64,000 nucleotides of DNA from Nematopogon swammerdamellus (lineage: Eukaryota > Arthropoda > Insecta > Lepidoptera > Adelidae), in contig OX336340.1 in NCBI GenBank assembly GCA_946902875.1, positions 1,409,501 to 1,473,500 of the forward strand. Direction: 5' to 3'. Positions 3,414-54,436 of the stretch are shown here, piece by piece. Each line of letters starts with the position of its first letter. The first letter of the stretch is position 1. Under the pieces are notes generated by a model. The model ran no database searches, was not told the origin of the DNA, and saw only the letters and a list, made by a program, of their open reading frames with translations. The translations under genes and the position numbers were made by a program.

Positions 3414-3809
3414 TTTTATGTAATCCGGTCGCCTGAGTCGAAGGGGCCTAAGCACATTCTCCGACCAGCCAATATCACCTCTGAGAAGGTAGGTGCCCGT
3501 GCATACCGGAGACTTCCCTGGATTCCTGGATATACTGAACTAGAAGAGAACACAGCCGAGCCTGCTATGCGGCCATCTTACATCCAGTACGGTGGTACTA
3601 ACCCAGTCGGCTACAATTTGAGCCTACAACCTCGTAAGGGGTAAGGGAAGGTACCTAGTTTTACACCAGTTCTAAACGGTGAAGCAGCAGGTGTAAGTAT
3701 GCACGTAAATTTTTTCGTCAGAAAAAACTCATTGGTACACATTGACCGGATTCGAACCTCGGACCTCTTGCACGAGAACCCGATGCCCAAAAACTCGGCC
3801 ACCCGCCGC
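3414..3809 (-). mobile_element. SINE B, full copy
   Basis: Minus orientation. The tRNA-like head is at the right (GGTGGCCGAGT.. A box; GGTTCGAATCC B box) and the body and tail run left. Flanking TAATACT repeats look like a target-site duplication. Confidence 0.7.
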
Positions 3810-3948
3810 TTAATACTACTTGTGTAATGTAATCAGAGATGTAATGTCATCAGATCAGAGCGGATAGTCCAAGCGATCCCTTGCAATGACCACTCACAAA
3901 TACGACTCGTGAAAACTCGTTGCAAACTTGCGTGGCTCATAACGAGAT

Positions 3949-8281: not shown

Positions 8282-8365
8282 TCATCATCATCATCAGCCT
8301 GTATCGGTCCACTGCTGGACATAGGCCTCTCCCAAGGCACGCCACCACACGCGGTCTTCCGTTCT
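8282..8365 (-). mobile_element. RTE-type LINE 3' end
   Basis: The reverse strand encodes an ending like 'RVWWRALGEAYVQQWT' and terminates in (GAT)n, as RTE-clade elements of Lepidoptera do. A plus-strand relative is at 59043-59112. Confidence 0.65.
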
Positions 8366-8384
8366 TCAATATAAAGTATTAAAT

Positions 8385-8640
8385 TTGAACCTTCAGAAAA
8401 CGGTCGTTCAGAAAAAGCTACTACACAATTCGCAGCTCATGAAGTACCTGGAGACGAATGGTCTCATCAGCGATCGGCAATACGGCTTCAGGCCAAAACG
8501 ATCAGCTGGTGATCTCCTAGCGTATATCACTCGTCTTTGGGGTGAATCGCTCGAAGATCATGGTCAAGAATCCTTGGCAATTGGCCTTGATATTGCCAAG
8601 GCATTTGACCGGGTTTGGCACAAGTCGCTCTTATTAATTT
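8385..8640 (+). pseudogene. Jockey-like reverse transcriptase fragment
   Basis: The frame reads QLMKYLETNGLISDRQYGFR..RSAGDLL and then LDIAKAFDRVWH, i.e. RT blocks around the first catalytic Asp (A/DIAKAFD), then leaves homology. It is a truncated piece of the non-LTR family that also appears at 10104-12020, and it covers the RT part that copy has lost. Confidence 0.75.
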
Positions 8641-8711
8641 ATTTTTATTTTTTCGCTTTAATTTTTTTTTCTCTTAAACCAAGTCAATGCGAGCATACAA
8701 TTATTATATAA

Positions 8712-9880: not shown

Positions 9881-10103
9881 ATGTGTTGGAACATTTCACA
9901 CACCACGACTATTATCGAATTTCGGAAATTTCATATTTATTTACATTTATTTTGGACAAAATAAGCCTGTACTATGCTATGCCTGTGCCTGACCTTCGCA
10001 GGCAGGCGTACTATAAAAAAAAGAAAATGTGCAGTTTTCTGGTTCGGATTCCACGTAAAACTGTAGGTCCCTTCCCTTTTTACCGTACTAGGTGGTAGGA
10101 TTT

Positions 10104-12020
10104 TTTTATAGATAGAAAGCGCGACATGTGGCGCCGAGCCACCCATAGTGTGTCTAACGACGCCCATGGACATTCGATCGTACGCGGGGGTTGCGAATGC
10201 CATGCCGGCCTGACAGGTGCCTATTCACGCCTCTCTTGAAGGACCCGAGACTGCACTTGAGGGGAAATATGTGGGCAGGGAGAGCGTTCCAGAGTTTACC
10301 AGTTCTGTGGAGGATAGATTTGCAGCACCGATTGGTACGCATCCGTGGTAAGTCCAGCGTATAGGGATGCAATCTCTGCCCAGTGCGCGTTGTGCGGAGG
10401 TGGAAAGGGGACGGCGGGATTGCGTTAAACAGCTCCTCCGAGCATTCCCCATGGAATAAGCGATAGAACACACTTAGGGCGCCGACATCCCTACGGAGTT
10501 GCGGGGGTTCTAGATCGCGGGATACGTCGGGGTCACCCACTAGTCGCAAAGCTCGACGCTGGATCGAATCCAAAGGCGCAAGCTGGTATTTAGCTGAGCC
10601 ATCCCACAAGTGCGAGCAGTACTCCAAGCAGGACCTAATCTGCGTTTTATAAAAAAACAGCCTTGGTTGTTTGTGTCCAGGTACGCCATGAGCTGTGCAT
10701 TGATAATGCGCTCCATCACCTTGCAGAGTAGAGAGGTAATCGCTATAGGTCGGTAGTTCGACGGGTTTGAGCGGTCGCCCTTTTTGGGAACTGCTTGAAC
10801 AAACGCAGATTTCCAGGCTGCCGGCACACGGCAAGTGGAGTAAGAGAGGCGGAAAAGGCGCGTCAGCACTGGAGACAGCTCCGGAGCACACCGTTTCAGC
10901 ACCAATGCAGGAATTCTGTCCGGCCCACCTGCCTTCCTGGTGTCTAGGGAGAGAAGCTTTGCCCGCACAGTTCGTTGTCGGAACTGTACTTCCGGCATGG
11001 AGTTCTTACACCTAGTTATGGATGGATGGATGGCACCCCCATCGTCCAGGTTAGAGTTCCCCGCAAAGAGAGACACCAGTAAGTCGGCCTTCTCTTTTGC
11101 GGAGTGAGCAAGTGAGCCCCCAGGACATTGCAGAGGCGGAAGTGAGGAGCGGCAGAAATTCGACTCGACAGATTTGGCGAGAGACCAAAACTCACGGCTC
11201 CCAGTTGGGGGCTGGTTCAGCCTACTCTGCCGATAGGGGTCCCGGCGGCCGTGTCGGTGCACCACTAACAGATCGATTATTCGAGCACTTGAGTAGAGCG
11301 GCAGACGAAGTGCAAGTCCGGTTTCCCTTCGCGAATATGGCTCTGCTCGGAGATTTTAATGCCCACCACGAGGTGTGGCTAGGCTCCGGGAGAACTGACT
11401 TGGCGGGGAGAGCCGCCTACGACTTCGCCCTGACCCATGACCTGTCTCAACTGGTAAACCACCCGACAAGAATACCAGATATAGACGGTCATGAACCCCC
11501 TCTGCTGGATCTTCTGCTGACAACGAACCCTGCTGGATATAAAGTCACAGTGAGCGCTCCTCTTGGCTCCTCAGACCACTGTCTAGTGGGGTCCACGGTG
11601 CCATTTTCGCCTCCTCCGTTCAATACTGGAGGAACGCGTCGAATTTGGCACTACGCGTCAGCAGATTGGGATGGAATGCGAGAACACTTCGCATCCTACC
11701 CATGCAGAGAGCTATGCTTCAGTTCGGATGATCCGTCAGAACGCGCTAATTCCGTCGCCGCGATGGTTCTGGGGAGAATGGACATGTTCATTCCCAGTGC
11801 CGTCGTCCGCCTTGGTGGTAAGAGCCAGCCCTGGTACAGCCGTGACTGTGCCGATGCTGTCTCAGCTAATGGTGCAGCTTATCGTGCATGGTCGTGCGCT
11901 CGTGCCAGAGGTGATCCTGACATCTCCGAACTGAAGAAAGAATACAACCGCCTCTCCAGATCCTGCAAGAGGGCTATTGCCAGGGCAAAATTCGAGCATA
12001 TCGGCAGAGTTGGCGACATC
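10104..12020 (-). mobile_element. Jockey-like LINE with twin-priming inversion
   Basis: Minus-strand part (10104 to about 11234): RT N-terminal half (GSREFWSLAKSVE, KAGGPDRIPALVLK, YRPIAITSLLCKVMER) joined to the RT C-terminal region (SCLEYCSHLWDGSAKYQL, TGKLWNALPAHIF). The palm with the catalytic YADD is deleted. Plus-strand part (about 11235-12020): the endonuclease half. The endonuclease end (FEHIGRVGD) and the RT start share ATCGGCAGAGTNGGC, i.e. one element broken and inverted at that point, with GGATTT target duplications outside. Confidence 0.8.
10154..11234 (-). pseudogene. Reverse transcriptase segment of the LINE, internally deleted
   Basis: Two overlapping minus frames carry the RT N-terminal blocks (about 10680-11220) and the C-terminal 'thumb' region (10154-10660). 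Between them, near 10660-10690, the middle of the RT is missing and the frame shifts. Not functional. Confidence 0.8.
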
Positions 12021-12056
12021 GGATTTATCACGCCCGAGTTGATACCACAAAACTGA
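11235..12056 (+). pseudogene. Inverted apurinic-type endonuclease segment of the LINE
   Basis: The open frame shows LLGDFNAHHEVWLGS (GDFNAHH motif), LDLLLTTNP and GSSDHCLV (SDH motif) of AP-like endonucleases, then the C-rich linker with SRSCKRAIARAKFEHIGRVGD before entering the split SINE at 12021. The catalytic N-terminus is missing. Confidence 0.8.
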
Positions 12057-15427: not shown

Positions 15428-16346
15428 CGTGGGCTGTTCCGAAAATTGTTAGCCACAGAATAAATACAATTTTTTTTTTCCTGAAACTATTTTGATTTGA
15501 CGGCTAATTTAAATACAAATCTCCTCGATGAAAATTATTGGCCACCTATGTGTAGTTCTTTTTTTAAATATTTTTAACGGTTATCCGTCACTCATATTTT
15601 ATTTGCAACAATGGACGTCTCGCGAGAAGCTTTTCGTGTTATGATTTTCTATGCTTATAAACTAGGGTTAACCTTCAAGGAATCTCACGAAAATTTGCAA
15701 GCTGCTTTTGGGGAGTCTGCTCCTTCGTTAGCAACAGTTACTTATTGGTTTCGTGAATTTAAACGTGGTCGACAGAACCTAAACGATGACCCCAGACCCG
15801 GCCGACCATCAACTGCAGTCACTCATGAAAACGTCATCAGGGTAGAGTGGCTATTGCGGGAGAATAGACACATTACACATCGGGAGATTCAGGCTGAACT
15901 GAAGATTGGTATTGCGAAGTTTGTCTGCCTCAAGCTTTCGGGGAGTTGAATAGCGAGCGCCCAAGGAGCGGCTTCCGTGGCATTCTTTTTCACCAAGATA
16001 ACGCGCCCGCTCACACACCGGTAGAAACATGGACTATTTGGCAACTTCGGTTATCCCATCCTCCGTACAGCCCAGATTTAGCTCCATGCGATTTTTTTTT
16101 ATTTCCCACGGTATAAAAAATGCTTCGCAGGCGAAAATTCAACACTGCATATGAGGCCGTCGAAGAATTTCGGCGGTTATTTTTCGACCTCCCGCAAGAT
16201 ACGTTTTTTAAATGTTTTGAAACCTGGTTCACCCGAATGCATAAGTGCATAGGGATTGGAGGGAAATATTTTAAAAAGCTGTAAATAGTTTTTTTTCATA
16301 TTCTAACTATTTTTCATTTCACTAACAATTTTCGGAACAGCCTATG
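15428..16346 (+). mobile_element. Internally deleted mariner element
   Basis: Near-identical TIRs (GGCTGTTCCGAAAATTGTTAG inside both ends) flanked by TA. Length 919 bp against about 1.3 kb for a complete mariner. The transposase N- and C-termini are present but the middle is lost. Confidence 0.88.
15611..16284 (+). pseudogene. Mariner transposase, deleted and stopped
   Basis: 15611-15905 encodes the DNA-binding region (MDVSREAFRVMIFYAYKLG.., TVTYWFREFKRG, DDPRPGRPS). After the deletion a different frame resumes with FHQDNAPAHT, YSPDLAPCDFFLFP (third catalytic Asp) and ends at TAA 16282-16284. An additional stop follows FFLFPTV. The second catalytic Asp region and the first are gone or partial, so it is inactive. 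Confidence 0.85.
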
Positions 16347-18927: not shown

Positions 18928-19040
18928 GGCCCGGTGGCGTAGTTGGTTATCGCGTTGGCGGTTCAACCCAGAGACCCAGGTTCGAATCCTGGCCGGTATG
19001 TATTTTTTTCAATGATTTTCGCATTGCATTTTTCTATTTA
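18928..19040 (+). mobile_element. tRNA-headed SINE L
   Basis: GGCCCGGTGGCGTAGTTGG (A-box-like) and CAGGTTCGAATCCTGGCCGG (B box in a stem) are tRNA-like, followed by TTTTTCAATGATTTTCGC. Relatives are at 33190-33360 and 42415-42495. I do not call a functional tRNA because the anticodon arm and acceptor pairing are not convincing. Confidence 0.55.
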
Positions 19041-28952: not shown

Positions 28953-29138
28953 ATGGCGCTCTTGCGGTGTTGTGTGCTCTTAGCACTTTCAACGATGGTC
29001 AGTGCACAGACAACCGATAGGCTGGTGACTATCGATCAAGGACCTGTGCGTGGGTACCTGAGCAGCCAAGACAACGAGGTGGTCGCCTTCTACGGTATAC
29101 CGTACGCCACCGCTCCCACGGGCAGGGACAAGTTCAAG
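28953..29138 (+). CDS. Esterase exon 1: signal peptide and N-terminus of domain 1
   Basis: 62 codons, ending in phase 0 at AAG|gtaagt. It encodes a hydrophobic leader (LLRCCVLLALSTMVSA) followed by the family N-terminal strand with DQGPVRGY and FYGIPYA. The equivalent mature N-terminus recurs, without a leader, at the ends of exons 3 and 5. The initiator is the first ATG after the TATA-like box and lies in a favourable context. Confidence 0.9.
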
Positions 29139-32100
29139 GTAAGTTTATTCGGAGCATACGGAAGCCTTTGGCAAGTTGCCAACGCTAGGGTTTGGTATTG
29201 TTTATTGTTTATTGTACCTACGCTTGGACATGTCAAAAAATTCCGCCAGTTCTAAATTCAAATGCGAAGAAGAACTGACAAACAAACTTTGCAAGTCACA
29301 ATGTTTTGTTAGTACCTTATAAGTGTTTTTTTTTTTTAGAATAGAAAAGAATTTATTGTTCGAAGAATTTTGGTACAGAATCGGTACAGAATATCTGTAA
29401 AACACTTAATATTTAAGAATAGGTACATTTTACAATACAATTTACATTTTAGCATTTTACAAATCATCATCCATCAGATTAACCTACTAAGGTATATTGT
29501 GTATGACACATGCATAGGTTTCTGTACCAGCTATTTTGTTTATACCCTACCATGCTCACTGGGAACAATCCCATATTGAGGATGGCAGGTTTGTCTTTAG
29601 TCGCGTGCTACTAGCTTCCACACTAAACAGTTTTGAACAATTAAATAAATAATGATGAGAAAAAAAAATGTATAAAATAAATTAAAATATTATGCTATAG
29701 TAACTTACAAATAATTAACCCATACTACCGCTCACAAGAGTTTTAATATTTACAGCATCAACATGAATACTGAAGAATCTGACCACACTGTCTATTTAAA
29801 TTACTACTTATATAGGCTGTTACGATGACCATGTCATTAACTTCGGGAGGGTTACATAGACACTCAAATAAACACGTTACGCAAAAAAAAAATATATGTT
29901 TATAGTATTACTTTTCGAGAAATTTAACAAAACATGTTAGCTACCTAAACATTAACCTGTGTGTAACAGTAGGTAACTTGCATTGTACGGGGTCAATGAC
30001 CGTACTATGTTCAAACGCAGAACAGCTGTTTGTTGTAAGTAAGTCACAAGGTCACTATGATTGGTTTTTACAGCTACTTATTTGATTTAATTTTTTTGTT
30101 AGGAGAAAAAATGCTCCAAAAGAAAAAAACATATGTTTTTTTCTTACGTAAAGTGTTTATTTCAGTGTGTATGTAACCCTCCCGAAGTTAATGACATGGT
30201 CAGCGAAACACCTTATATATGGTCTATCGAAGAGTACTGTATTGTCTATCGAAGAGTGTTTCCCGATTTTTTATGGAAACTGACACGGTTGGCTACATCA
30301 CCATCTAGATCCGCGATGTCAGCCCCATTACACATTGGCGTAATAATAGGTACCATGTCAATGCTTCCCTTCGATTGTGCCGGCTACACTAAAATGGACG
30401 GAAAACACGAACTATTTACATAACCGTTTCGACCGACGCTTCATTCGGTGCGGTGGTATCAACCCGGGTAGGATAAAACCTTTCAACCTAGTAAGGTAAG
30501 AAGAAGGTGCCAGGTGTGCTTATAATCCGACGGATAGTCGACCAACCGCACCAATGAGCTACCGAGGCTGACTAATCCGATACTTTCAACCTAGCAGTTT
30601 TCAAAGGTCGTATTAACAAGCTGGATAGCGCTTCTGTGGTGTCTCGCCGAGCTTGGTTTCACGAGATGAAGTAGACTTAGCTGTTTCGGTTCCTCTGGTC
30701 CCTCGGCACAGCCACCCACACTCTTTTTCATAAAAAAGTCCCCTTTTGATTGTTTGCTGCACTGGTGTAGACTAGAGGAGAACACAGCCGGGGTTATTAT
30801 TCGGCCATTTTTCGTTCATTACGATGGTACCAACCGAGTAAGCTACAATTGGAGCCTACCACCTAGTAAGAGTCAAGGGATGGTATGGTCGGCTATGCCA
30901 TTTCACTTTGTTTCTTTCGGAGTGAGGTGTAACGCCAGTGTATCCCTTTAGTCGTGCCGATAACACTGAATTGAACTTTTTAGGTTTTTTTTTATTTTTT
31001 GTTTTATGGAAACTGACTCGGTTGCCTACATCACCTAGAACATCCGTGATGTCAGCCCATAACACCGGGTGAACTAGGTGCCATGTCAGTGATTCCCTTC
31101 GGTCGTGCCGGCTACACTGAACAGGACGGAAAACACAAACTATTTACATTATTCATTCAGTGCGGTGGTATCAACCCGGGCGGGTTGAACCCTACCACCT
31201 AGTAACGTAAGAAGGGAAGGGACCTACAGTTTTACGTGGAATCCGTACCACGGTCAGCCTCCAACGGCCAAACGGTCACCCATTTAAGTACTGACCGCGC
31301 ACAGCGTTGCCTAACAATCAATAGCAACAGTCGACTGTCTGCACCACTGAGCTATCGAGGCTGACAAAACCTGAAAATACAAATTATTTCTCAAAACAGT
31401 TTCAATTATTTTTCATTCAGTTCGGTGCTACCAATGCTGACGGGTTTAAAACAATATACTATATTTGGTTTCAGGCGCCTCTCCCTCCACCAGTATGGAC
31501 CGAGGTCTTTGAAGCGACCAATGATCTAATTTTATGTCCACAACCACATTTACCCTCGCGCGAAGACTGCCTAGTGGTGAACGTCTACTCGCCTGCTACT
31601 CAGCAAGGTCCACTGCCGGTGATGGCCTATACCCACGGCGGCGGATTCACGATGGGTTACGGTGCGATGACTTCACCTGAACAACTTGTAAAACAAGGTG
31701 TCGTCGTCGTAACCTTCAATTACCGTCTTGGCGCCACAGGTTTTCTCTGTCTCAAAAATGAAAATATCCCCGGCAACGCCGGGGTCAAGGATCAGGTGGC
31801 AGCCCTTCGCTGGATTCAGAGAAACATTAACAGTTTCGGAGGAAATCCAAACGACGTCACTATTGCTGGATATAGTGCGGGCAGTGTCTGTGTTGAATAC
31901 ATGATGCTGTCCCCTATGGCCAGTGGGTTGTTCCACAAGGTAATATCTGAAAGCGGTTCGGTACTCTCTCCGTTTTCGGAATCGCGTGACCCGATAGCAT
32001 TCGCCAAGCGGTTCGTTGCTGATATGGTGGGACAAAATGTTGACGATTTGGCAGAAATTGAAGAATATTTGCTTAACGCGTCGCCAGAGGTACTACTCAC

Positions 32101-35100
32101 GGACTTATATCAAGACGACATAGACACTAGCATGGGACTAAGTCCATGCGTTGAGCAAGAAATCGACGGCATAGAAAGTTTCTTGACAGAAAGTCCTCTG
32201 AAGATTTTGCAGAGCGGAAACTATAACAAAGTTCCCTACTTAACAGGCACTACCAGCTTAGACGGATCTTTGAGATTGCCAATATTTGATGACTGGAAAA
32301 CAAAAATGGAAGATAACTTCGCTGATTTCTTGCCTGTGGGTCTCAATTTTGCAAATGAAAATGTAAAGAAAGAGGTCGCCCAGAGGGTAAAACAATTTTA
32401 CTTCAACAACGAGCCTGTGAGTGACGAGACCATAAAGGGTTTTGTAGATTTTTCTACAGACATAATCTTTGGCTACCCTTCATTACGCTCTGCCAGGCTC
32501 CATGTCCAAAATGAAGTTCCTGTATTTCTGTATTCGTTTAGTTATGTTGTCAGCGAATATCCTTCACACATACACGACGACAAGATAAGGGGCGCCATAC
32601 ACGGCGCACAATCATTCTGCGTGAACAGGATCCCGTGGCTGCATAATCCTGTCAGTGAAAGCGAAAACGATATTCGCATGCGTAATCGTCTCACTAAGAT
32701 GTGGTCAGATTTCGTCAAAAATGGGTAAGTGAATTATAGTACAGCTGGTAGCTTAACTAATAAAGCACAAAATCTGTAACGACCGGAGCGCTTTCGACCA
32801 TTATATCTTGACGATAAAAATTAAAATTTACATCGTAAGATTTCAACTTCTCTTGAGCAATGCCGGGAGAGGAGGGGCATTATCTTGTTACACGAAATCA
32901 TCCATTCCTCTATAGATTACCCTTAACTTAAATAATTACTATTCTTTTCTATTCTGACTCCTGTTATAGATTAACTTCCGTTCTCCATGAAAGTCTACGA
33001 ATAAATGGATACATTTTTGAAAAAGAAAGGCAATAAACCTTATAGAGCTATTTATTGTTATTAAATGTGCTTTTAATATAGGTAACGTTACCGTTACGTA
33101 GTAAGGTAACGTAAGTGTTAAGTTACATCTTAATTAATTTGGAAACTTTATTGATTAATGCCTATAATTTTCTGGCATATCTATCTGATATTTTTAATTA
33201 GAAAAATGCAAAACGAAAATCATTGGAAAAAATACATCCCGGCCAGGATTCGAACCCAGATTTTATGTCGATCGGGCAGAGACCCAGGTTAGAATCCTGG
33301 CCAGGATGTAGGTATTTTTTTTCAAAGATTTTGGCGTTGCATTTTTCTAATTAAAAATATAATATATAAAGCGAGTACGTGCTTACTACTAACATATAAA
33401 CATAAAATATTATATACGTATCTATCTGATAGTTATAGGACACTAGTTTTTGCCCGCAACTTCGCTCGCATAGCCTATGTCCATCCTGAAGTTTCATTTT
33501 AAATATTGTTCAAAGTATTTTTAAAATAGGATGAGTATCGTCGGAGATTACCTCCTACATCCAAAGTTACAAACTTTACCTCTTTATAATGTTAGTGTAG
33601 ATGTAGATGTTGCAGGACGAAGCTACGGCAACAGCAGGTTCAATAATACAAATAAGTACTGTACCTATCTGATAAAACGACATAAAATAGTACATCCATA
33701 CATACATACCACACGCGGTATCTAGCGGCGGGTGGCCGAGTGGTTTGGGCATCGGTTTCTCATGCGGGAGGTCCGAGGTTCAAATCCGGTCTCCGTGTAC
33801 CAATGAGTTTTTTCTGACGAAAAAAATTACGTGCATACATACACCTGCTGCTTCACCGTTTGGAACCGGTGTAAAACTGTAGGTCCCTTCCCTTGCCCCT
33901 TACTAAGTGGTAGGCTCAAATTGTAGCCGACTGGGTTGGTACCACCGTACTGGATGTAAGATGGCCGCATGGCAGCCTCGGTTGTGTTCTCCTCTAGTCC
34001 AGTATAGCCAGCAATCCAGGGAATTCTCCGGTATAGCACCTACCTTCTCGGAGGTGATATTGGCTAGTCAGAGCATGTGCTTTGGCCCCTCTGACTCAGC
34101 CACCCATACCAAAATAATAAAAAAAAAATCTTGACAATTCGGGGTAAGCAATCGACAATCGGTGTTGCGCTGGAAGAACTCGAGTAAATTACAACACAAC
34201 ACCGACCACCACGTTTAACAAATTATTAGGACAAGATAACTAGCAAGCAGCAAGTAAGGCACGTAAACCACCCTGCTGCATGATTCGGTGGAAGAACCGT
34301 GCCAAGGTGGGAGGTGGCAAGCCTGTCGGCCTTTAGCTCGGCATTTCGTCCTCATCCCTTAGTCACCTTTTCCGGCATTCAAGGGGAGAGATGCAGTGGG
34401 GTTATTCTGTTTTAATTTCGGCCCCACACGGTACATAAATATATAAAATATGTATTAGTGTATAAGCAATTAAAATTTTGCACTTCTGAGAAATTAAGAT
34501 TTTAGATAGAAAACATAGCAGCTTATTAGTTATTAGTCTAATTAGTAGTAGAAAAGCCTTTTTTAAACTAAGTAAAAATATAAATACAGTTACCCATAAT
34601 TTCAAGTATAAATCTTCGATAATAAAAATAATTCCGCTTATGGTATAAATAACTAATTTTTAATTACAGAGTGCCGGTGCCGGAAACTTCGGAACTGGTG
34701 TCAGTAAACTGGGAGCCTATGGAGTACGACAAGATGAACTACTTGTCTATGGATGTTGAGATGGAGTCACGGGAGCTGCTGCTCGGCGACCGGTTCACGC
34801 TGTGGGACGAGATATACCAGCAGTACTACGGCAGCACTGACGAGACAGGCCAGAGTGTGGTCGTCGACATAGAGCAAGGACCAGTACGAGGCTATAAGAG
34901 CCCACTTGGAAAGTTCTACGTGTTTAACGGAATACCTTACGCCACCGCTCCTATTGGAAGAGACAAGTTCAAGGTAACAGGCTTAGTTACTTTGATAAAA
35001 TGTCAGCTCTTAATGCTACTTTAGAGCATTTCAAATAATAACAAAACATAATTTCTTGAAAGAGCAATAACGGTACAATTTTAATAATTGGAAAATATTT

Positions 35101-38100
35101 CAGGCTCCTCTTCCTCCGCCCACGTGGACAAATGTATTTGAGGCAACAAATAGTAACATCATGTGTCACCAACCTGGGTTTGCCGGACTGACACAAGACG
35201 ACTGCCTTGTCGTAAACATTCACACACCGATCAATCGACAAGGACATGTACCGGTGATGTTTTATATTCATGGCGGCGGATTCACGCAAGGTTACGGAGC
35301 AATGGTATCACCCGAAGATCTGGTAGAACACAAACTCGTTGTGGTTACCATCAATTACCGTCTCGGCGCCACAGGTTTTGTCTGTATGAGAGATGAAGAT
35401 ATCCCAGGCAACGCAGCTTACAAAGACCAAATAGCGGCTCTGCGCTGGGTCCAGCAAAATATTGCCAGCTTTGGAGGAAACCCCAACGATGTTACGATTG
35501 CCGGGTTTAGTGGAGGAGGTATAAGCGTTGAATTTATGATGTTGTCACCGATCGCAAATGGGTTGTTTCACAAGGTTATTTCTGAAAGTGGTTCAGTACT
35601 AATCCCATTTTCTGAAGGACGAGATCCGATCGCATTCGCTAAGCGATTCGCATCTGATATTGCAGGAAACGATATTGACGATCTTGAAGAAGTAAAACAA
35701 TTATTGCTGGATGCAACATCAGAAGAACTCTTCACAGATCTCTATGAGTCATATCAATATCGACAAGATGCTAGTATGGGTTTTACTTTTTGTGTTGAGG
35801 ATGAAATCGACGGTGTTGAAAGTTTTTTGACGGAAGCTCCACTTGAAGTTTTGAAGAAGGGCAATTACAACAAAGTAACGATCATGACGGGTATTGCTAG
35901 CGAAGAGGGTTCAATATATTTACCCCACTTTGACGACTGGAAACCAGAAATGAATGAACATTTTGATCATTTCATTCCCGTGGGTCTTAATTTTGCAAAT
36001 GAAAATGAAAAGAATGCAGTGGCTAACAGAGTGAAGCAATTTTACTTCAATAATGAACCAGTGAGCGACGAAAACATAAGAGGCTTTATGGATTTTGCAA
36101 CCGACATAAGCTTTGGTTATGCATTGTTGCGCTCGGCCAGGCTCCACGTGCAAAACTCAGTTCCTGTGTACCTGTACCTCTACACATACATTGTGAGCGA
36201 GTATCCTCGACACGCACACGACGATAAGATAAGGGGCGCAATACACTGCGCACAATCATTCTGTGTGAACAGAATCCCGTGGTTGCATAATCGCGTCAGC
36301 GAAAGCGAGAACGATATTCTAATGCGTAATCGTCTCACGAAGATGTGGTCAGATTTCGCCAAAACTGGGTATGTAAATTCTATAACTTGTATTTATTAAC
36401 AAACAACTTATTGTCTCTAATAACACGATAGAAAAAATATAAGTATAGGGATTAACATTAAACAGTTCTAAGAACCAATTTGTGTGACGCAGGCGAGGGT
36501 GCAACTAGTATATTTTTTTTAAAACAATGAATGCTCTTTATACGTCGCTCCAAGCCCTTTTTAAAACAAAGTTAAACAATATGAAACGCAGTTCTACATA
36601 AGTAATTGTCCATAGCTATAGGTATAACTAATTTTTAATTGCAGAGTGCCGGTGCCGCAAACTTCGGAACTGGTGTCAGTAAACTGGGAGCCTATGGAGT
36701 ACGACAAGATGAACTACTTGTCTATGGATGTTGAGATGGAGTCGCGGGAGCAGCTGCTCGGCGACCGGTTCACGCTGTGGGACGAGATATACCAGCAGTA
36801 CTACGGTAGCACTGACGAGACAGGCCAGAGTGTGGTCGTCGACATAGAGCAAGGACCAGTACGAGGCTATAAGAGCCCACTTGGAGAGTTCTACGTGTTT
36901 AACGGAATACCTTACGCCACCGCTCCTATTGGAAGAGACAAGTTCAAGGTAACAGGCTTAGTGACTTTGATAAAATGTCAGCTCTTAATGCTACTTTAGA
37001 GCATTTCAAATAATAACAAAAGATAATTTCTTGAAAGAGCAATAACGGTACAATTTTAATAATTGGAAAAAATTTCAGGCTCCTCTTCCTCCTCCCACGT
37101 GGACAAATGTATTTGAGGCAACAAATAGTAACATCATGTGTCACCAACCTGGATTTGCCGGACTGACACAAGACGACTGCCTTGTCGTAAACATTCACAC
37201 ACCGATCAATCGACAAGGACATGTACCGGTGATGTTTTATATTCATGGCGGCGGATTCACGCAAGGTTACGGAGCAATGGTATCACCCGAAGATCTGGTA
37301 GAACACAACCTCGTTGTGGTTACCATCAATTACCGTCTCGGCGCCACAGGTTTTGTCTGTATGAGAGATGAAGATATCCCAGGCAACGCAGCTTACAAAG
37401 ACCAAATAGCGGCTCTGCGCTGGGTCCAGCAAAATATTGCCAGCTTTGGAGGAAACCCCAACGATGTTACGATTGCCGGGTTTAGTGGAGGAGGTATAAG
37501 CGTTGAATTTATGATGTTGTCACCGATCGCAAATGGGTTGTTTCACAAGGTTATTTCTGAAAGTGGTTCAGTACTAATCCCATTTTCTGAAGGACGAGAT
37601 CCGATCGCATTCGCTAAGCGATTCGCATCTGATATTGCAGGAAACGATATTGACGATCTTGAAGAAGTAAAACAATTATTGCTGGATGCAACATCAGAAG
37701 AACTCTTCACAGATCTCTATGAGTCATATCAATATCGACAAGATGCTAGTATGGGTTTTACTTTTTGTGTTGAGGATGAAATCGACGGTATTGAAAGTTT
37801 TTTGACGGAAGCTCCACTTGAAGTTTTGAAGAAGGGCAATTACAACAAAGTAACGATCATGACGGGTATTGCTAGCGAAGAGGGTTCAATATATTTACCC
37901 CACTTTGACGACTGGAAACCAGAAATGAATGAACATTTTGATCGTTTCATTCCCGTGGGTCTTAATTTTGCAAATGAAAATGAAAAGAATGCAGTGGCCA
38001 ACAGAGTGAAGCAATTTTACTTCAATAATGAACCAGTGAGCGACGAAAACATAAGAGGCTTTATGGATTTTGGAACCGACATAAGCTTTGGTTATGCATT

Positions 38101-38882
38101 GTTGCGCTCGGCCAGGCTCCACGTGCAAAACTCAGTTCCTGTGTACCTGTACCTCTACACATACATTGTGAGCGAGTATCCTCGACACGCACACGACGAT
38201 AAGATAAGGGGCGCAATACACTGCGCACAATCATTCTGTGTGAACAGAATCCCGTGGTTGCATAATCGCGTCAGCGAAAGCGAGAACGATATTCTAATGC
38301 GTAATCGTCTCACGAAGATGTGGTCAGATTTCGCCAAAACTGGGTATGTAAATTCTATAACTTGTATTTATTAACAAACTATGCGATAGAAAAAAATAGA
38401 AGTATATGGATTAATATTTAACAGTTCTAAGAACTAATATGAAAGTGTGCAACTAGTATTAAAAAAATTTTACAACAATGAATGCTCTTTAGAGTGCGCT
38501 TCAATTCTTTGGTACCGTCGTCGTCCCGTTGAACCGCAGCAGGTTAAAACAAAGTTAAACAATATGAAACGCAGTTCTACATAAGTAATTTGTCCATAGG
38601 TATACTTAACTAATATTCAATTGCAGAGTGCCGGTGCCGCAAACTTCGGAACTGGTGTCAGTAAACTGGGAGCCTATGGAGTACGACAAGATGAACTACT
38701 TGTCTATGGATGTTGAGATGGAGGTGCGGGAGCTGCTGCTCGGCGACCGGTTCACGCTGTGGGACGAGATATACCAGCAGTACTACGGCGGCGGCGCGCA
38801 TGCGCTCGTCACATCCACTACTATACTCCTTCCCATACTACTCGTCATCTTTAACTTATTCTCTAAATATTTTAGTACGTAG
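28953..38882 (+). CDS. Three-domain tandem carboxylesterase, 7 exons, 1609 aa predicted
   Basis: Seen: exons 28953-29138, 31475-32724, 34670-34973, 35104-36368, 36645-36948, 37079-38343 and 38627-38882 join with GT/AG introns in phases 0,2,0,2,0,2 and no internal stop. The start ATG has a good context (CAACATGG) and opens a signal peptide (about residues 1-18, ending MVSA). Each domain has an HGGG oxyanion motif (116, 636, 1159), a G-x-S-x-G nucleophile elbow (Ser196 GYSAG; Ser716 and Ser1239 GFSGG), an acid (Asp325; Glu848; Glu1371) and a His in GAIH (438, 961, 1484). Residues 1585-1609 are a hydrophobic tail. Known: alpha/beta-hydrolase carboxyl/cholinesterases are normally single domains of about 530-560 aa that hydrolyse carboxylic esters. 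Inferred: a secreted, probably GPI- or membrane-anchored polyesterase for dietary, xenobiotic or semiochemical esters. Domain 1 is about 70% identical to domain 2 by eye; domains 2 and 3 differ at very few residues. The exact subfamily is not assigned. Confidence 0.9.
29205..29815 (+). repeat. Family-M repeat, interrupted, in intron 1
   Basis: 29205-29325 and 29690-29815 match the contiguous 61664-61945. The intervening 29326-29690 is a separate AT-rich insertion. Confidence 0.55.
29826..30202. mobile_element. 377-bp MITE with long TIRs, in intron 1
   Basis: TGACCATGTCATTAACTTCG.. (left) and its inverse ending CGAAGTTAATGACATGGTCA (right) agree over about 50 bp with only a few mismatches. 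Transposase is absent. No clear target duplication, so the superfamily is open. Confidence 0.75.
30272..30572 (-). mobile_element. SINE A in intron 1
   Basis: GGAAACTGACACGGTTGGCT tail to CACCAATGAGCTACCGAGGC head; part of the central block is lost. Confidence 0.6.
30583..30745 (+). mobile_element. LINE family-E 3' end in intron 1
   Basis: TTCAAAGGTCGTATTAACAA (FKGRINK) and CCTCGGCACAGCCACCCACA match the 875-1113 element. Confidence 0.5.
30755..30985 (-). repeat. SINE B and SINE A pieces in intron 1
   Basis: 30755-30885 is the B body (CTAGAGGAGAACACAGCCGG, GGAGCCTACCACCTAGTAAG); 30930-30985 is an A-tail scrap. Confidence 0.5.
31005..31365 (-). mobile_element. SINE A in intron 1
   Basis: Full tail-to-head copy ending CACCACTGAGCTATCGAGGC, 110 bp before the exon 2 acceptor. 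Confidence 0.7.
31475..32724 (+). CDS. Esterase exon 2: catalytic core of domain 1
   Basis: 416 codons plus 2 nt, after acceptor tttggtttcag and before donor gtaagt. It carries the two N-terminal loop cysteines (83 and 94), THGGGF (oxyanion hole, 115-120), GYSAGS (Ser196), TSLDGS and GAIHGAQ (His438). The acid position has Asp325 where domains 2 and 3, and most of the family, have Glu in an (E/D)EG context. Asp works as the triad acid in many alpha/beta hydrolases, so the domain may still be active, but this is the clearest difference between the domains. Confidence 0.92.
33190..33400. repeat. Palindromic pair of SINE L halves
   Basis: TTAATTAGAAAAATGCAAAA..CCCGGCCAGGATTCGAACC and its inverse GGTTAGAATCCTGGCCAGG..TTTTTCTAATTAAAAAT face each other around a loop of about 30 nt. 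Confidence 0.6.
33441..33600 (-). mobile_element. Helitron-type fragment in intron 2
   Basis: ACTAGTTTTTGCCCGCAACT at the left (inverse of a CTAGT end) and TTACCTCTTTATAATGTTAG at the right. Confidence 0.5.
33723..34122 (+). mobile_element. SINE B, full copy in intron 2
   Basis: tRNA-like head GCGGGTGGCCGAGTGGTTTG, B box GAGGTTCAAATCC, central domain GTAAAACTGTAGGTCCCTTC, tail GGTGATATTGGCTAGTCAGA, A-rich end. Confidence 0.7.
34130..34436 (-). repeat. Family-C repeat in intron 2
   Basis: TTGACAATTCGGGGTAAGC to CGGCCCCACACGGTAC; the CATA end is missing. Confidence 0.6.
34670..34973 (+). CDS. Esterase exon 3: fusion exon, end of domain 1 plus start of domain 2
   Basis: 304 nt, after ttttaattacag and before AAG|gtaaca. 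The first 54 codons (VPVPETSEL to QQYYG) are the C-terminal end of an esterase and match the terminal exon 7. After a short linker (STDETGQS) it continues in frame with VVVDIEQGPVRGY to GRDKFK, the homologue of mature exon 1. There is no stop, ATG leader or intron at the join, so the fusion is encoded in a single exon and does not depend on a splicing guess. Confidence 0.9.
35104..36368 (+). CDS. Esterase exon 4: catalytic core of domain 2
   Basis: 421 codons plus 2 nt. Motifs: IHGGGF (635-640), GFSGGG (Ser716), ASEEGS (Glu848) and GAIHCAQ (His961); loop cysteines 601 and 614. All catalytic positions are intact. It is separated from exon 3 by a 130-bp intron and ends ACTGG|gtatgt. Compared with exon 6 I count four amino-acid differences (K/N, V/I, H/R and A/G). 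Confidence 0.92.
36645..36948 (+). CDS. Esterase exon 5: fusion exon, end of domain 2 plus start of domain 3
   Basis: Same length (304 nt) and design as exon 3 and almost the same sequence. I see three amino-acid differences: PET/PQT, RELLL/REQLL and LGK/LGE. It lies exactly 1975 bp downstream of exon 3, after a 276-bp intron. Confidence 0.9.
37079..38343 (+). CDS. Esterase exon 6: catalytic core of domain 3
   Basis: Same length as exon 4 (1265 nt) and placed 1975 bp further on. It keeps IHGGGF, GFSGGG (Ser1239), ASEEGS (Glu1371) and GAIHCAQ (His1484). The open reading frame and the preserved triad suggest selection or a very recent origin. It is followed by a 283-bp intron that resembles the exon 4/5 intron but carries a short extra segment (about 38490-38545). 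Confidence 0.92.
38627..38882 (+). CDS. Esterase exon 7: domain 3 C-terminus and hydrophobic tail
   Basis: It starts like exons 3 and 5 (VPVPQTSEL to QQYYG) but then diverges to GGGAHALVTSTT and a strongly hydrophobic stretch (ILLPILLVIFNLF) close to the TAG at 38880-38882. Small residues before a short hydrophobic tail resemble a GPI-attachment signal. A single membrane anchor is the alternative. This was probably the terminal exon of the ancestral single-domain gene. Confidence 0.88.
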
Positions 38883-39289: not shown

Positions 39290-39612
39290 GGTGGGTGGGG
39301 TCAGTACTTGGATGGGTGACCGCTCGACCGTTGGAGGCTTGACTGTGGTTCGGATTCCACGTAAAACTGTAGGTCCTTCCCTTCCTACCTTACTCGGTGG
39401 TAGGGTTCAACCCGCCCGGGTTGGTACCACCGCACTGAATGAAACGTCGGTCGAAACGGCTATGTAAATAGTTTGTGTTTTCCGTCCAGTTCAGTGTAGC
39501 CGGCACGATCGAAGCACTGACATGGCACTTAGTTCACCCGGTGTTATGGGCTGACATCACGGATGTTGTAGGTGATGTAGCTAACCGCGTCAGTTTCCAT
39601 AAAAACAAAAAA
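39290..39612 (+). mobile_element. SINE A downstream of the esterase
   Basis: Starts inside the 5S-like block (GTCAGTACTTGGATGGGTGA) and ends in the tail with an A run. Confidence 0.7.
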
Positions 39613-39644
39613 TTATAAAACATTCCAAAATTCCAAATTGCGGT

Positions 39645-40011: not shown

Positions 40012-40974
40012 CTATAAATAATATATTTCATTTAAATTTGACAGAGTCGCTGCACCGGTGCAAGTGCCAAGTACGCACGCCGCGTTACACCTCTGAATCT
40101 CAATGGCGATTCGCCGAACAAAGAAAGCTTTGGCACGGCGGTCACCAGATTTATCTACTAAAAGTTTTCCCAATTTATCCGAGAATGTTTTGGTGTCTGG
40201 CGACCACGGCCCCAAAGTTTCTACGGCGAAAGGTTGAAATTCAAAGTGGTCGCGCAGCGGGCTGTACTTAGACACTTTGATGGCAGCTGCCTTAGATGCA
40301 GCGGCTCCGGCAGATTTGGAGGAGTCGAGTACATGGGACGGGGCCAAGGTGTCCACGCACGTAGCGTCCCACAAGAGCGCCTTTCCCTGGCACCATGGCA
40401 CCAGCGTCATGCCGTCTGGCTTTCTCCCGTCTGTGCGGCATAAGCCCGCTGGCTCCAGCGTAGACGGAATATTTACTGAAGCCAGCGAGCGTTTGATGAT
40501 ATTATTCAAGCCGCTGTGACGGGGAAGCCTGCCGGCACTTCTCTGGCACGAAAGGCCATGGATACCGCTGGAATCTACGCTCTTACCACAGACGCAAATA
40601 TGGGGATTGCACACTCCGGCCCCGACACGAAGAGCCACAGCTATACGTAGTGTGGTTCCGTCTAAAAGCGTCCCAAGACTCGGAGACGGGTACGCTTTCA
40701 GCCATGCACCCGACTCCTCTTCCGCAGATGCCAGGATGCGCGCCCGATCCGTAACGCTCCCCTCTGACAATAAAATCTCACGCTGTTTCATTGCCAGAGG
40801 GATGTCCCACAAACGTTGAAGTCCCTTGTTTGCGTCAGTCGGTTCGACGACATCTGGACACAGCGCCCTCCAGTGCTCCAGAGCCTCATCCATGCAGTCG
40901 ACCTCACAGGCATTTCCGAGAGATTTTTCAAGAATTTTTCGGATGAGGCTAAGACTAGCATGGGTAGAAGCCAT
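40012..40974 (-). CDS. Retroelement-type protein, zinc-knuckle plus nuclease-like C-terminus
   Basis: 320 codons, uninterrupted. Residues 40-120 include LQRLWDIPL and LPS/YPSPSLG; residues about 140-175 carry CVCGKSVDSSGIHGLSC followed by RH, a C-C-H-C-like knuckle; then DGRKPDG..LLWDATCVD, a PD..D arrangement like restriction-like endonucleases. This protein type recurs in animal mobile elements next to reverse transcriptases. Seen: motifs and the intact frame. Inferred: C-terminal part of a non-LTR (RLE-type) or related element. No RT domain is visible upstream, so it is a 5'-truncated copy or a stand-alone relic. It does not look like a host gene. Confidence 0.6.
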   Translation of the reverse strand: MASTHASLSLIRKILEKSLGNACEVDCMDEALEHWRALCPDVVEPTDANKGLQRLWDIPLAMKQREILLSEGSVTDRARILASAEEESGAWLKAYPSPSLGTLLDGTTLRIAVALRVGAGVCNPHICVCGKSVDSSGIHGLSCQRSAGRLPRHSGLNNIIKRSLASVNIPSTLEPAGLCRTDGRKPDGMTLVPWCQGKALLWDATCVDTLAPSHVLDSSKSAGAAASKAAAIKVSKYSPLRDHFEFQPFAVETLGPWSPDTKTFSDKLGKLLVDKSGDRRAKAFFVRRIAIEIQRCNAACVLGTCTGAATLSNLNEIYYL

Positions 40975-41214
40975 GCCTGATTTTTTTGTAATTTTAGAAA
41001 ATATAGGTTTTTAAAAGTTTTATAAAAATATTATAATCTAAAATTGTTTTTATTAATATTATTTACATTCCAAAGGTGAGCCCTAATCAAAATACTAAAC
41101 CAAAATACTAATAAAGTATTTTTAATTTATTTTCACGAATATTTTTGGTAAGTTAAGCAAGTAGTAAGAATTTTAATATTATACTTTTTCTTCTTTAGAA
41201 GCTAAGGTGCTGTG

Positions 41215-44196: not shown

Positions 44197-44408
44197 TAAT
44201 TCATGTGCCTAATAAATCGCATAAGCTGCAAGATATGTTTTATCTTCTTAATTAATTCCAAAGCAGACCAGACCAACTTATCCAAGCGCGCAGACTAAAA
44301 ACTCTCGTACCTCACTCGTGGAGGCTGCAGCGTGCAACGGACACAGGCTAGGTCCAGCCCTCCCTCTGTGCGACCATAGACTGTATCACGCCTCCGTATG
44401 GCTTGTAA

Positions 44409-44810
44409 GCGGCGGGTGGCCGAGTGGTTTGGGCATCGGCTTCTCATGCGGGAGGTCCGAGGTTCGAATCCGGTCGGCGTGTACCAATGAGTTTTTTCTG
44501 ACGAAAAAATGTACGTGCATACCTCCACTTGCTGCTTCACCGTTCGGACCCGGTGTAAAACTGTAGGTCCCTTCCCTTGCCCCTTACTAGGTGGTAGGCT
44601 CAAATTGTAGCCGACCGGGTTGTACCACCGTACTGGATGTAAGATGGCCGCATAGCAACCTCGGTTGTGTTCTCCTCTAGTCCAGTAAAGCCAGAAATCC
44701 AGGGAAGTCTCCGGTATGGCACCTACCTTCTCGGAGGTGATATTGGCTAGTCAGAGCATGTGCTTTGGCCCCTCTGACTAAGCCACCCATACCAGATGAC
44801 ATAAAAAAAA
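44409..44810 (+). mobile_element. SINE B, full copy
   Basis: Head GCGGGTGGCCGAGTGGTTTG with B box GAGGTTCGAATCC, central domain and tail, ending CCAGATGACATAAAAAAAA. Reference copy for family B. Confidence 0.75.
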
Positions 44811-45394
44811 CTTAACAAAACTTGGTTCCTTACCAAGAATAAAACATTATTTTCATATCAGCGATAGCTTTAAATAATTCATTCAAATGTCTTTATTAAT
44901 ATTCAATTTGACAGTTATTTAGTATGAATAAATTAGTTTACTGTCCACAAATAGTCGACTCGCACTAAAAAAAATCATTATAAAAAACGATTGTCACCTA
45001 ATAAAGTGAAAATGAAAAACGGTAACGAATTCTTTGATCCTTTAGCTATCGAGTGGTGTAATTAAATTTTGGATGTAGGTATAATTATGATGATAGATAT
45101 GCAGCTGCAACACCAAACTGTATCTCCCGATTTTGTTATCATCACTTTTATAAATTGGCTCCCTCCCACTATGGAAGCAAAAAAGACGTATTCACGTCAA
45201 AAAATACGATTTCAATCTTGCCTAAAACGACATATCGTCGAAAAGCGCTTGCTTTGGGAATTTATATTATTAGGTACCTATATTAACTTTTCAATTGACA
45301 ATTTTATAAAATATACAAAACACCGAAGTTGCTCCAAAGTCAGGCGTACAACTAGATTTATAAATATAACCAAAAAACGTGAAAGTAATAGCTA
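44811..45394. other. No gene recognised
   Basis: Includes a 108-codon frame (45069-45395) with Lys-rich, low-information composition; probably chance. Confidence 0.35.
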
Positions 45395-48262: not shown

Positions 48263-49199
48263 AGTAATGGCAAAGGCTGATTTCTCCCAGTTAACCATTG
48301 TTTAGTTTTTAAATGAAAACAAAATGAATGATAATTGATAACCTATCCCGCGCCGGAGGGCCTGTATTGGCCCAAAATACTTATTCTTTCTTTAACATAC
48401 AAACAAACTGTTTCATACGAATATGAACCCTGTTCAAACACAAAACAGCTGTTATTTAGTTTATCTCGTACATAGGCACATAGAAACGTAGTCGTTTGTC
48501 GAATACACGTACATCTAATGATATTTTAAAAGACAAATTGTAAATTCGTTTGTTGTGAGTCCCAATATACCACATAGGTGCGATATTTTGTCATGTCGCT
48601 TGCGTTAATATGTGAATGTTGTTTAAACAAGAACTTTCTCAGAAAGTTTTAGCTCGTCATCTACTTTGACGCTGATGTAGGACTGTATGTATGTGTGTGC
48701 ATAATTATTTACTTTTGTTTAAGGGGCTCGTGCTTGTCTTATTTTATTTATGATATTTTCGCCATTTTAAGACAAGACGGAAGTTAAATTTCTCGATACA
48801 AAATCGTCTTTCGGCATTTATGTTTTTTACCCCCCTAAACCTTATCCGATTTTTACAATTATTTTGTTGTTGTAATAAGGATAGTCGAATCTACGTTCCT
48901 GTCATTTTATATTTTCAATAACTAAAGTGATGTCTCAATAAAGCTTAATGAAGATCATGACATCAAAAAATAAAACATTAGTATTTTTTCGGTCGAAATA
49001 CTAAAACTTTACTAGAATTTTAGCTCCGGTGTTGTAGGTATATTTCATCTAAACAAATCAATGACAGGAACATACATTGGACAGTCCATAAAACAAGAAA
49101 AAAAAATTAAAAATTGTATAATATAGATATAAATATTTTATTCCTCCGATTTTGTATGGAGAAAGTTAACTTCCGTCTCGTCTTAATTATTTTTTTTTT
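48263..49199. other. No gene seen
   Basis: AT-rich unique sequence; nothing recognisable on either strand. Confidence 0.4.
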
Positions 49200-49474
49200 T
49201 TATGTAATCCGGTATGGGTGGCTGAGTCGGAGGGGCCAAAGCACATGCTCTAACCAGCCAATATCACCTCCGAGAAGGTAGATGCCATACCGGAGACTTC
49301 CCTGGATTGCTGGCTATACTGGACTAGAGGAGAACACAACCGAGGTTGCTTGCGGCCATCTTACATCCAGTACGGTGGTACCAACCCAGTCGGCTACAAT
49401 TTAAGCCTACCACCTATTAAGGGGCAAGGGAAGGGACCTACAGTTTTACACCGGTTCCGAACGGTGAAGCAGCC
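49200..49474 (-). mobile_element. SINE B, head-truncated
   Basis: TATGTAATCCGGTATGGGTG to CCGGTTCCGAACGGTGAAGC; the tRNA-like head is missing. Confidence 0.65.
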
Positions 49475-53831: not shown

Positions 53832-54037
53832 ATAAATTCGGTCATGTGCCAGTGTCCGTCCGTCCGTCCGTCCGTGTCCGTTTGTCTGTCTGTCACAGAC
53901 TGTACCTCCTAAGAGGTTCGAGCTTCAAACTTGAAATGTTTGTAGATTGGTGGACACAGGAGGTCACGCACTTTTATATGTGAGCGACGTCAGGGGTCCT
54001 CAGCTTTAATTAATAGGGACAGCAAAACACTGTTTTT

Positions 54038-54436
54038 TTTTATGTAATCCGGTATGGGTGGCAGAGTTGGAGGGGCTAAAGCGCATGCTCCGACCAGCCA
54101 ATATCACCTCCGAGAAGGTAGGTGCCATACCGGAGACTTCCCTGGATTGCTGGCTATATTGGACTAGAAGAGAACACAACCGAAGCTGCTATGCGGCCAT
54201 CTTACATCCAGTACGATGGTACCAACCCAGTCGGCTACAATTGGAGCCTACCACCTAGTAAGGGGCAGGGAAGGGACCTACAGTTTTACACCGGTTCCGA
54301 ACGGTGAAGCAGCAGGTGTAGGTATGCACGTAAATTTTTTCGTCAGATAAAACTCATTGGTACACGCCAACGGGATTCGAACCTCGGACCTCTCGCATGA
54401 GAAGCCGATGCCCAAACCACTCGGCCACCCGCCGGT
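54038..54436 (-). mobile_element. SINE B, full copy
   Basis: Tail at the left (GTAATCCGGTATGGGTGG), tRNA-like head at the right (GGGATTCGAACCTCGGACC, CCACTCGGCCACCCGCCGG). Confidence 0.7.

Follow-up and report, generated by a model that had tools for sequence, protein, structure and literature searches.

A lepidopteran locus predicted to encode a three-headed carboxylesterase on a single polypeptide chain

We analyzed a 64,000-nt window of the Nematopogon swammerdamellus genome (assembly GCA_946902875.1, contig OX336340.1, positions 1,409,501-1,473,500 of the forward strand), and all coordinates given below refer to this window. Positions 28953-38882 of the plus strand carry an esterase gene of seven exons and six introns, for which splice sites were placed by script. 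Every intron has GT-AG ends, the intron phases (0/2/0/2/0/2) are mutually consistent, and the spliced coding sequence of 4830 nt translates into 1609 amino acids followed by a stop codon, with no internal stops, which bears out a preliminary description of this DNA that had proposed seven exons with agreeing splice phases. Exon 1 (28953..29138) is an open frame that supplies the ATG, the predicted signal peptide and the N-terminal part of the first esterase domain (head 1), and ends at the donor AAG/GTAAGT. Exon 2 (31475..32724) encodes the core of head 1, including S196, D325 and H438, as established by frame, Pfam, PDB and motif evidence; the same kinds of evidence place the core of head 2, with S716, E848 and H961, in exon 4 (35104..36368). 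The core of head 3 (S1239, E1371 and H1484) lies in exon 6 (37079..38343), which differs from exon 4 at 7 of 1265 sites. Two fusion exons connect the heads: exon 3 (34670..34973) contains the C-terminal part of head 1, up to 34832, followed by the N-terminal part of head 2, and exon 5 (36645..36948) contains the C-terminal part of head 2, up to 36807, followed by the N-terminal part of head 3. Exon 7 (38627..38882) completes head 3 with its C-terminal part (to 38789) and adds a hydrophobic, anchor-like tail and the stop codon. The donor sequences of the gene are AAG/GTAAGT, TGG/GTAAGT, AAG/GTAACA and TGG/GTATGT, and the near-identical acceptors of exons 3, 5 and 7 have the motif TAACTAAT in common, which resembles the branch-point consensus.

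The Pfam COesterase profile (PF00135) matched the predicted protein in three stretches with a whole-protein score of 1180.8 bits, the best stretch aligning residues 23-512 to profile positions 3-503 of 515. BD-FAE and Abhydrolase_3 were also matched in Pfam, in three stretches each but far more weakly than COesterase, and at the sequence level the COesterase fold is settled. When searched singly, heads 1 and 2 matched 181 and 165 distinct PDB sequences, respectively, at E up to 0.001. The top match for both was Carboxylesterase-24 (7mp4), which we take to be an esterase of the moth Epiphyas postvittana; residues 5-491 of this 556-residue chain aligned with head 1 and residues 4-503 with head 2. 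Similarly, head 1 covered residues 43-573 and head 2 residues 36-572 of the 577-residue 5tym chain. Several such near end-to-end matches indicate that heads 1 and 2 are whole. Whereas 7mp4 is matched in a single stretch, the protein encoded here has three.

Judged by motif position, the oxyanion motif HGGGF occurs at 116, 636 and 1159, and GxSxG is likewise present three times, with S196, S716 and S1239 as the nucleophiles; the acid residues are D325, E848 and E1371, and the histidines H438, H961 and H1484. For heads 1 and 2, the triad and oxyanion motifs also aligned to 7mp4. The catalytic roles given to these residues are those of the COesterase family. The heads fall into two sequence types, with GYSAG and an acidic Asp in head 1, and GFSGG and an acidic Glu in heads 2 and 3, the last two being 98.6% identical over 509 codons. 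Replacement of the usual Glu by Asp at the acid position need not inactivate an esterase. As judged from these motifs, the chain probably comprises three complete, active esterases. The preliminary description had proposed three domains with three complete active-site sets; three COesterase domains, each with a triad and an oxyanion motif, are indeed present, with the amendments that the acid of head 1 is Asp rather than Glu and that heads 2 and 3 represent nearly identical copies of one 1975-bp unit, not two of three equally distinct domains.

The joints between the heads lie within single exons, so that the fusion is visible without merging gene models. In exons 3 and 5 alike, the first 163 nt are homologous to the beginning of exon 7, and the remaining 141 nt form a second part. 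The 163-nt C-terminal parts of exons 3, 5 and 7 differ from one another at 4 of 163 sites in every pair (97.5% alike), and the 141-nt parts of exons 3 and 5 differ at a single site (1/141). Alignment of the 141-nt part of exon 3 to exon 1 after the leader yielded 100 matches, 22 mismatches and 32 gap columns. At the protein level, the joint reads ...IYQQYYG, then the 11 residues STDETGQSVVV, then DIEQGPVRGY. Reading the frame through exons 3 and 5 revealed no leader, ATG or stop between the heads, and upstream of both exons the reading frame closes after 6 codons without an ATG. Nor did we detect leftover leader or anchor sequence when each was compared with three stretches, since 25 to 93 of 100 shuffles reached the same scores. 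The earlier proposal that both exons read through from one esterase C-terminus into the next N-terminus thus stands, as does that of one gene with three fused domains, given one frame, three Pfam stretches, one leader and one anchor-like tail. We consider the two-head fusion via exon 3 secure at the DNA level, and the third head is probably real.

Head 1 is interrupted by a phase 0 intron after amino acid 62 and by a phase 2 intron in codon 479, and both phases are found again in heads 2 and 3. For Bombyx alpha-esterases, a phase 0 intron is reported at the 42nd-74th amino acid and a phase 2 intron at the 469th-515th (PMC2784812), in agreement with the places and phases found here; the family and the catalytic motifs are common to both as well. 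This agreement indicates that each head retains a whole ancestral gene body and, with the recurrence in heads 2 and 3, that the fused exons each represent a last exon joined to a first exon. The lepidopteran origin of the DNA likewise fits with the Bombyx intron layout. With exon 4 as the query, viral and prokaryote contigs gave 5 and 22 pattern matches, respectively, and 0 relatives, as expected of an insect gene. A tblastn search of the window with the three domains (E up to 0.01) returned no esterase pieces beyond the seven exons and their edges.

Across the whole 1609-aa protein, hydropathy analysis ranked residues 1585-1603 as the strongest hydrophobic stretch and residues 1-19 as the second. 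A single signal peptide and a single C-terminal anchor had been predicted before, and the hydrophobic ends are in place, although the tail may serve either as a GPI signal or as a short transmembrane anchor. We lean toward a GPI signal; the final six residues, SKYFST, are not hydrophobic, which is atypical of such a signal. A leader, an esterase domain and a hydrophobic C-terminal tail are also features of Helicoverpa armigera CCE001f, 001g and 016a, midgut-library esterases for which PMC3684599 reports GPI anchoring, shown by phospholipase release. That paper attributes at least two sequons to all Helicoverpa armigera esterases with secretion signals, in contrast to the one sequon in 1609 residues found here (N263, in NASP, with Pro next) and none in heads 2 and 3; this scarcity counts against a typical secreted esterase. 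The word "domains" is absent from the text of PMC3684599, whereas the present protein has three.

From the frame, domains, triad residues, fusion exons, leader and tail read in the DNA, we infer that this is one expressed gene for a secreted, surface-anchored, ester-hydrolyzing carboxylesterase with three heads, which arose by duplication, exchange and gene conversion, and we hold this reading to be probable, with real room for doubt. The precursor of ~181 kDa would carry three carboxylesterase domains in tandem on a single chain, exported by its one signal peptide and kept on the cell surface by its one C-terminal anchor. Each head having its own triad, the chain would offer three catalytic sites of two sequence types; the two types could widen the substrate range, and the doubled type could raise capacity. 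The presence of all three triads makes the previously suggested multivalent hydrolase plausible. Its most likely role would be a digestive or detoxifying one, with esters of dietary or xenobiotic origin hydrolyzed at the surface of an epithelium, perhaps that of the gut. Here, the tissue and substrate, and the notion of a multi-headed ester hydrolase at the epithelial surface, are proposed by analogy with the GPI-anchored Helicoverpa esterases of PMC3684599.

The history of the gene appears to be a mosaic. BLAST comparison of the region with the window delineated a 1975-bp repeat unit made up of a fusion exon, an intron, a core exon and an intron, with copy 1 at 34649..36623 and copy 2 at 36624..38598, both on the plus strand, and a partial third copy that continues to 38792, into exon 7. 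The unit copies are 94.9% identical over 2195 columns. Between heads 1 and 2, dN/dS is 0.157 over 504 codons (NG86), indicating purifying selection since the two split, but the divergence is uneven: the 450 codons without the C-terminal part gave dN 0.20 and dS 1.47, compared to dN 0.016 and dS 0.06 for the last 54 codons. For heads 2 and 3 we obtained dN 0.0067, dS 0.0123 and a ratio of 0.54, the two being too alike for selection on head 3 to be shown. A near-identical tract spans roughly 34833-36404, with an abrupt end inside intron 4. Introns 3 and 5 differ at 3 of 130 sites, whereas the alignment of introns 4 and 6 has 24 differences in 245 aligned sites and a further 69 gap columns (~90% alike), a divergence that suggests that two unit ends were present well before the last homogenization.

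These sequence patterns are most simply explained by a fusion of long standing, to which a third unit was added later, and by recurrent gene conversion. A tandem duplication with its junction inside coding DNA would have produced a two-headed gene in one step, provided that the junction fell after the catalytic domain and before the anchor signal, and was joined to the mature N-terminus past the leader. The third head would have been gained later by unequal exchange between units, and gene conversion since then would have homogenized the C-terminal exon parts as well as the cores of heads 2 and 3. We also considered a recent chimera, in which exons 1-2 of one gene were joined to the array of another, because the C-terminal part of exon 3 is 97.5% like those of exons 5 and 7, in contrast to the strong divergence between the cores of heads 1 and 2 (dS 0.06 versus 1.47). 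Under such a chimera, the 3' end of intron 2 should be similar to introns 4 and 6, and only a weak likeness was seen: a score of 37 with intron 4 (reached by 0 of 300 shuffles, top shuffle 35) and of 31 with intron 6 (reached by 6 of 300), compared to 209 between introns 4 and 6. In the same shuffle-scored comparison, the first 500 bases of intron 2 had no likeness to introns 4 or 6. Gene conversion of the exon is therefore preferred to a recent chimera; an older chimera would still be compatible with the data.

A more far-reaching interpretation, which we offer tentatively and with considerable doubt, is that the gene is an expandable array, in which every copy of the phase-keeping 1975-bp unit adds one head. 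Gene conversion would keep the joints alike, head number would differ between individuals or species, and ester hydrolysis or binding would be tuned by copy number within the gene rather than by whole-gene amplification.

Overlapping with the favored three-headed product is a modular gene that gives mostly one- or two-headed products by exon skipping, with the three-headed form as a minor species. Omission of exons 3-4, 5-6 or 3-6 would keep both frame and tail, yielding products of 1086, 1086 and 563 aa, respectively, and the near-identity of the acceptors at exons 3, 5 and 7 is in keeping with this scheme. Nevertheless, the possibility of in-frame skipping is a by-product of the duplication and does not show that it is used, and introns 3-6 are short (130-283 nt); short introns are normally spliced in order. 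We consider skipping as the main mode of expression unlikely.

Somewhat less probable still is an assembly error, in which the true gene is two-headed and head 3 results from two alleles, or a miscounted unit, laid end to end. The differences between exons 4 and 6 (7/1265) and between introns 3 and 5 (3/130) are in the range of alleles, and the dN/dS of heads 2 and 3 is loose. On the other hand, the divergence of introns 4 and 6 (24/245 plus 69 gap columns) is large for alleles whose exons are 99.4% identical, three versions of the C-terminal part exist in exons 3, 5 and 7 that differ pairwise at 4/163 sites, and the window is without any N. Even if true, an error of this kind would leave the two-headed fusion via exon 3 intact.

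To a similarly small degree we credit a mainly sponge-like protein at the surface, binding esters or toxins, with the three sites raising capacity rather than turnover; an ester sponge had also been suggested in the preliminary description. Extra sites per chain would be helpful for such a role, and PMC3684599 describes some Helicoverpa esterases as binding tightly with low activity and proposes toxin binding to anchored esterases. By the same source, none of the three anchored Helicoverpa enzymes (0/3) was in the gel region linked to toxin resistance. Moreover, all three triads are present here, so that a binding-only role is not required.

Highly improbable, finally, is transcription of the region as individual esterases that have their own internal starts and poly-A sites, or a gene becoming a pseudogene: intron 2 does contain five AATAAA, the first starting 35 nt past exon 2 (a count reached in 22 of 300 shuffles), and read-through of exon 2 meets a stop at 32726-32728, but a product ending in intron 2 would be short of the domain's last 54 codons, heads 2 and 3 have no directly preceding start codon or leader, every exon is open and the motifs are present. 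Poly-A sites in introns 4 and 6 had been named as a check on the fusion; AATAAA is absent from introns 3-6 (130-283 nt), in favor of the fusion, while the weaker signal ATTAAA, which counts against it, occurs once each in introns 4 and 6.

Lepidopteran alpha-esterases usually have one catalytic domain per protein, although this is not strictly defining, and the three domains in one frame depart from that pattern. Several same-family catalytic domains per anchored chain are known from sucrase-isomaltase, lactase-phlorizin hydrolase and two-domain ACE, which resemble the three-headed esterase in layout and belong to unrelated folds and families, such that the comparison is an analogy only. Insect esterase dose rises by whole-gene copying or over-expression; if the three-headed reading is true, a gene that multiplies the catalytic heads within a single anchored protein would reach a higher esterase dose differently, by clustering the sites on one chain and by combining two head types that could act on different esters. 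The joints would show that a single tandem duplication cut at the right two places can yield a working multi-domain enzyme in one step, and the patchwork of segments that are old, converted or new would make the order of events testable in related species. Exact-phrase searches of open-licence papers, most of them not opened, found no protein with at least two such esterase domains, which agrees with the layout having been called unusual; protein catalogues may list entries that have several COesterase domains. Passages from PMC3280521, PMC13209539, PMC4720363 and PMC9844850 do not treat several such domains in one protein, and the text of PMC2784812 is without the terms "two domains", "three domains", "double" and "fused". 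Unlike the Bombyx alpha-esterases described in the latter, the present gene has three heads in one frame and two last-plus-first fusion exons.

Repeats also occur in the window. One of ~320-380 bp is scattered over it in many copies and both orientations, including one in intron 1 (30987-31364) and one just past the gene (39299-39620), and a second, of ~280-410 bp, has copies up to 94% identical at 33703-34137 (in intron 2), 44408-44818, 54033-54434, 49192-49473 and 3433-3831. Intron 1 also contains an inverted repeat (arms 29809-29901 and 30127-30219, 89% identical) resembling the termini of a small DNA transposon. Elsewhere, a fragment at 15578-15946 (+) matches the HTH domain of Mos1-type transposases (PF17906), and retroelement fragments with reverse transcriptase (PF00078) and endonuclease (PF14529) lie at 8325-8708 (+) and 11055-12053 (+); positions 10001-12000 have the highest GC content (54.5%) of any 2-kb stretch in the window. 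A 332-aa open frame at 40015-41010 (-), with 0 Pfam matches at E up to 0.001, may correspond to the end of a LINE polyprotein. Rfam called a tRNA at 18928-19000 (+) with 35.7 bits, absent from the ARAGORN report; part of this call is repeated in intron 2 (33190-33256 and 33277-33358), suggesting that it is perhaps a tRNA-derived repeat.
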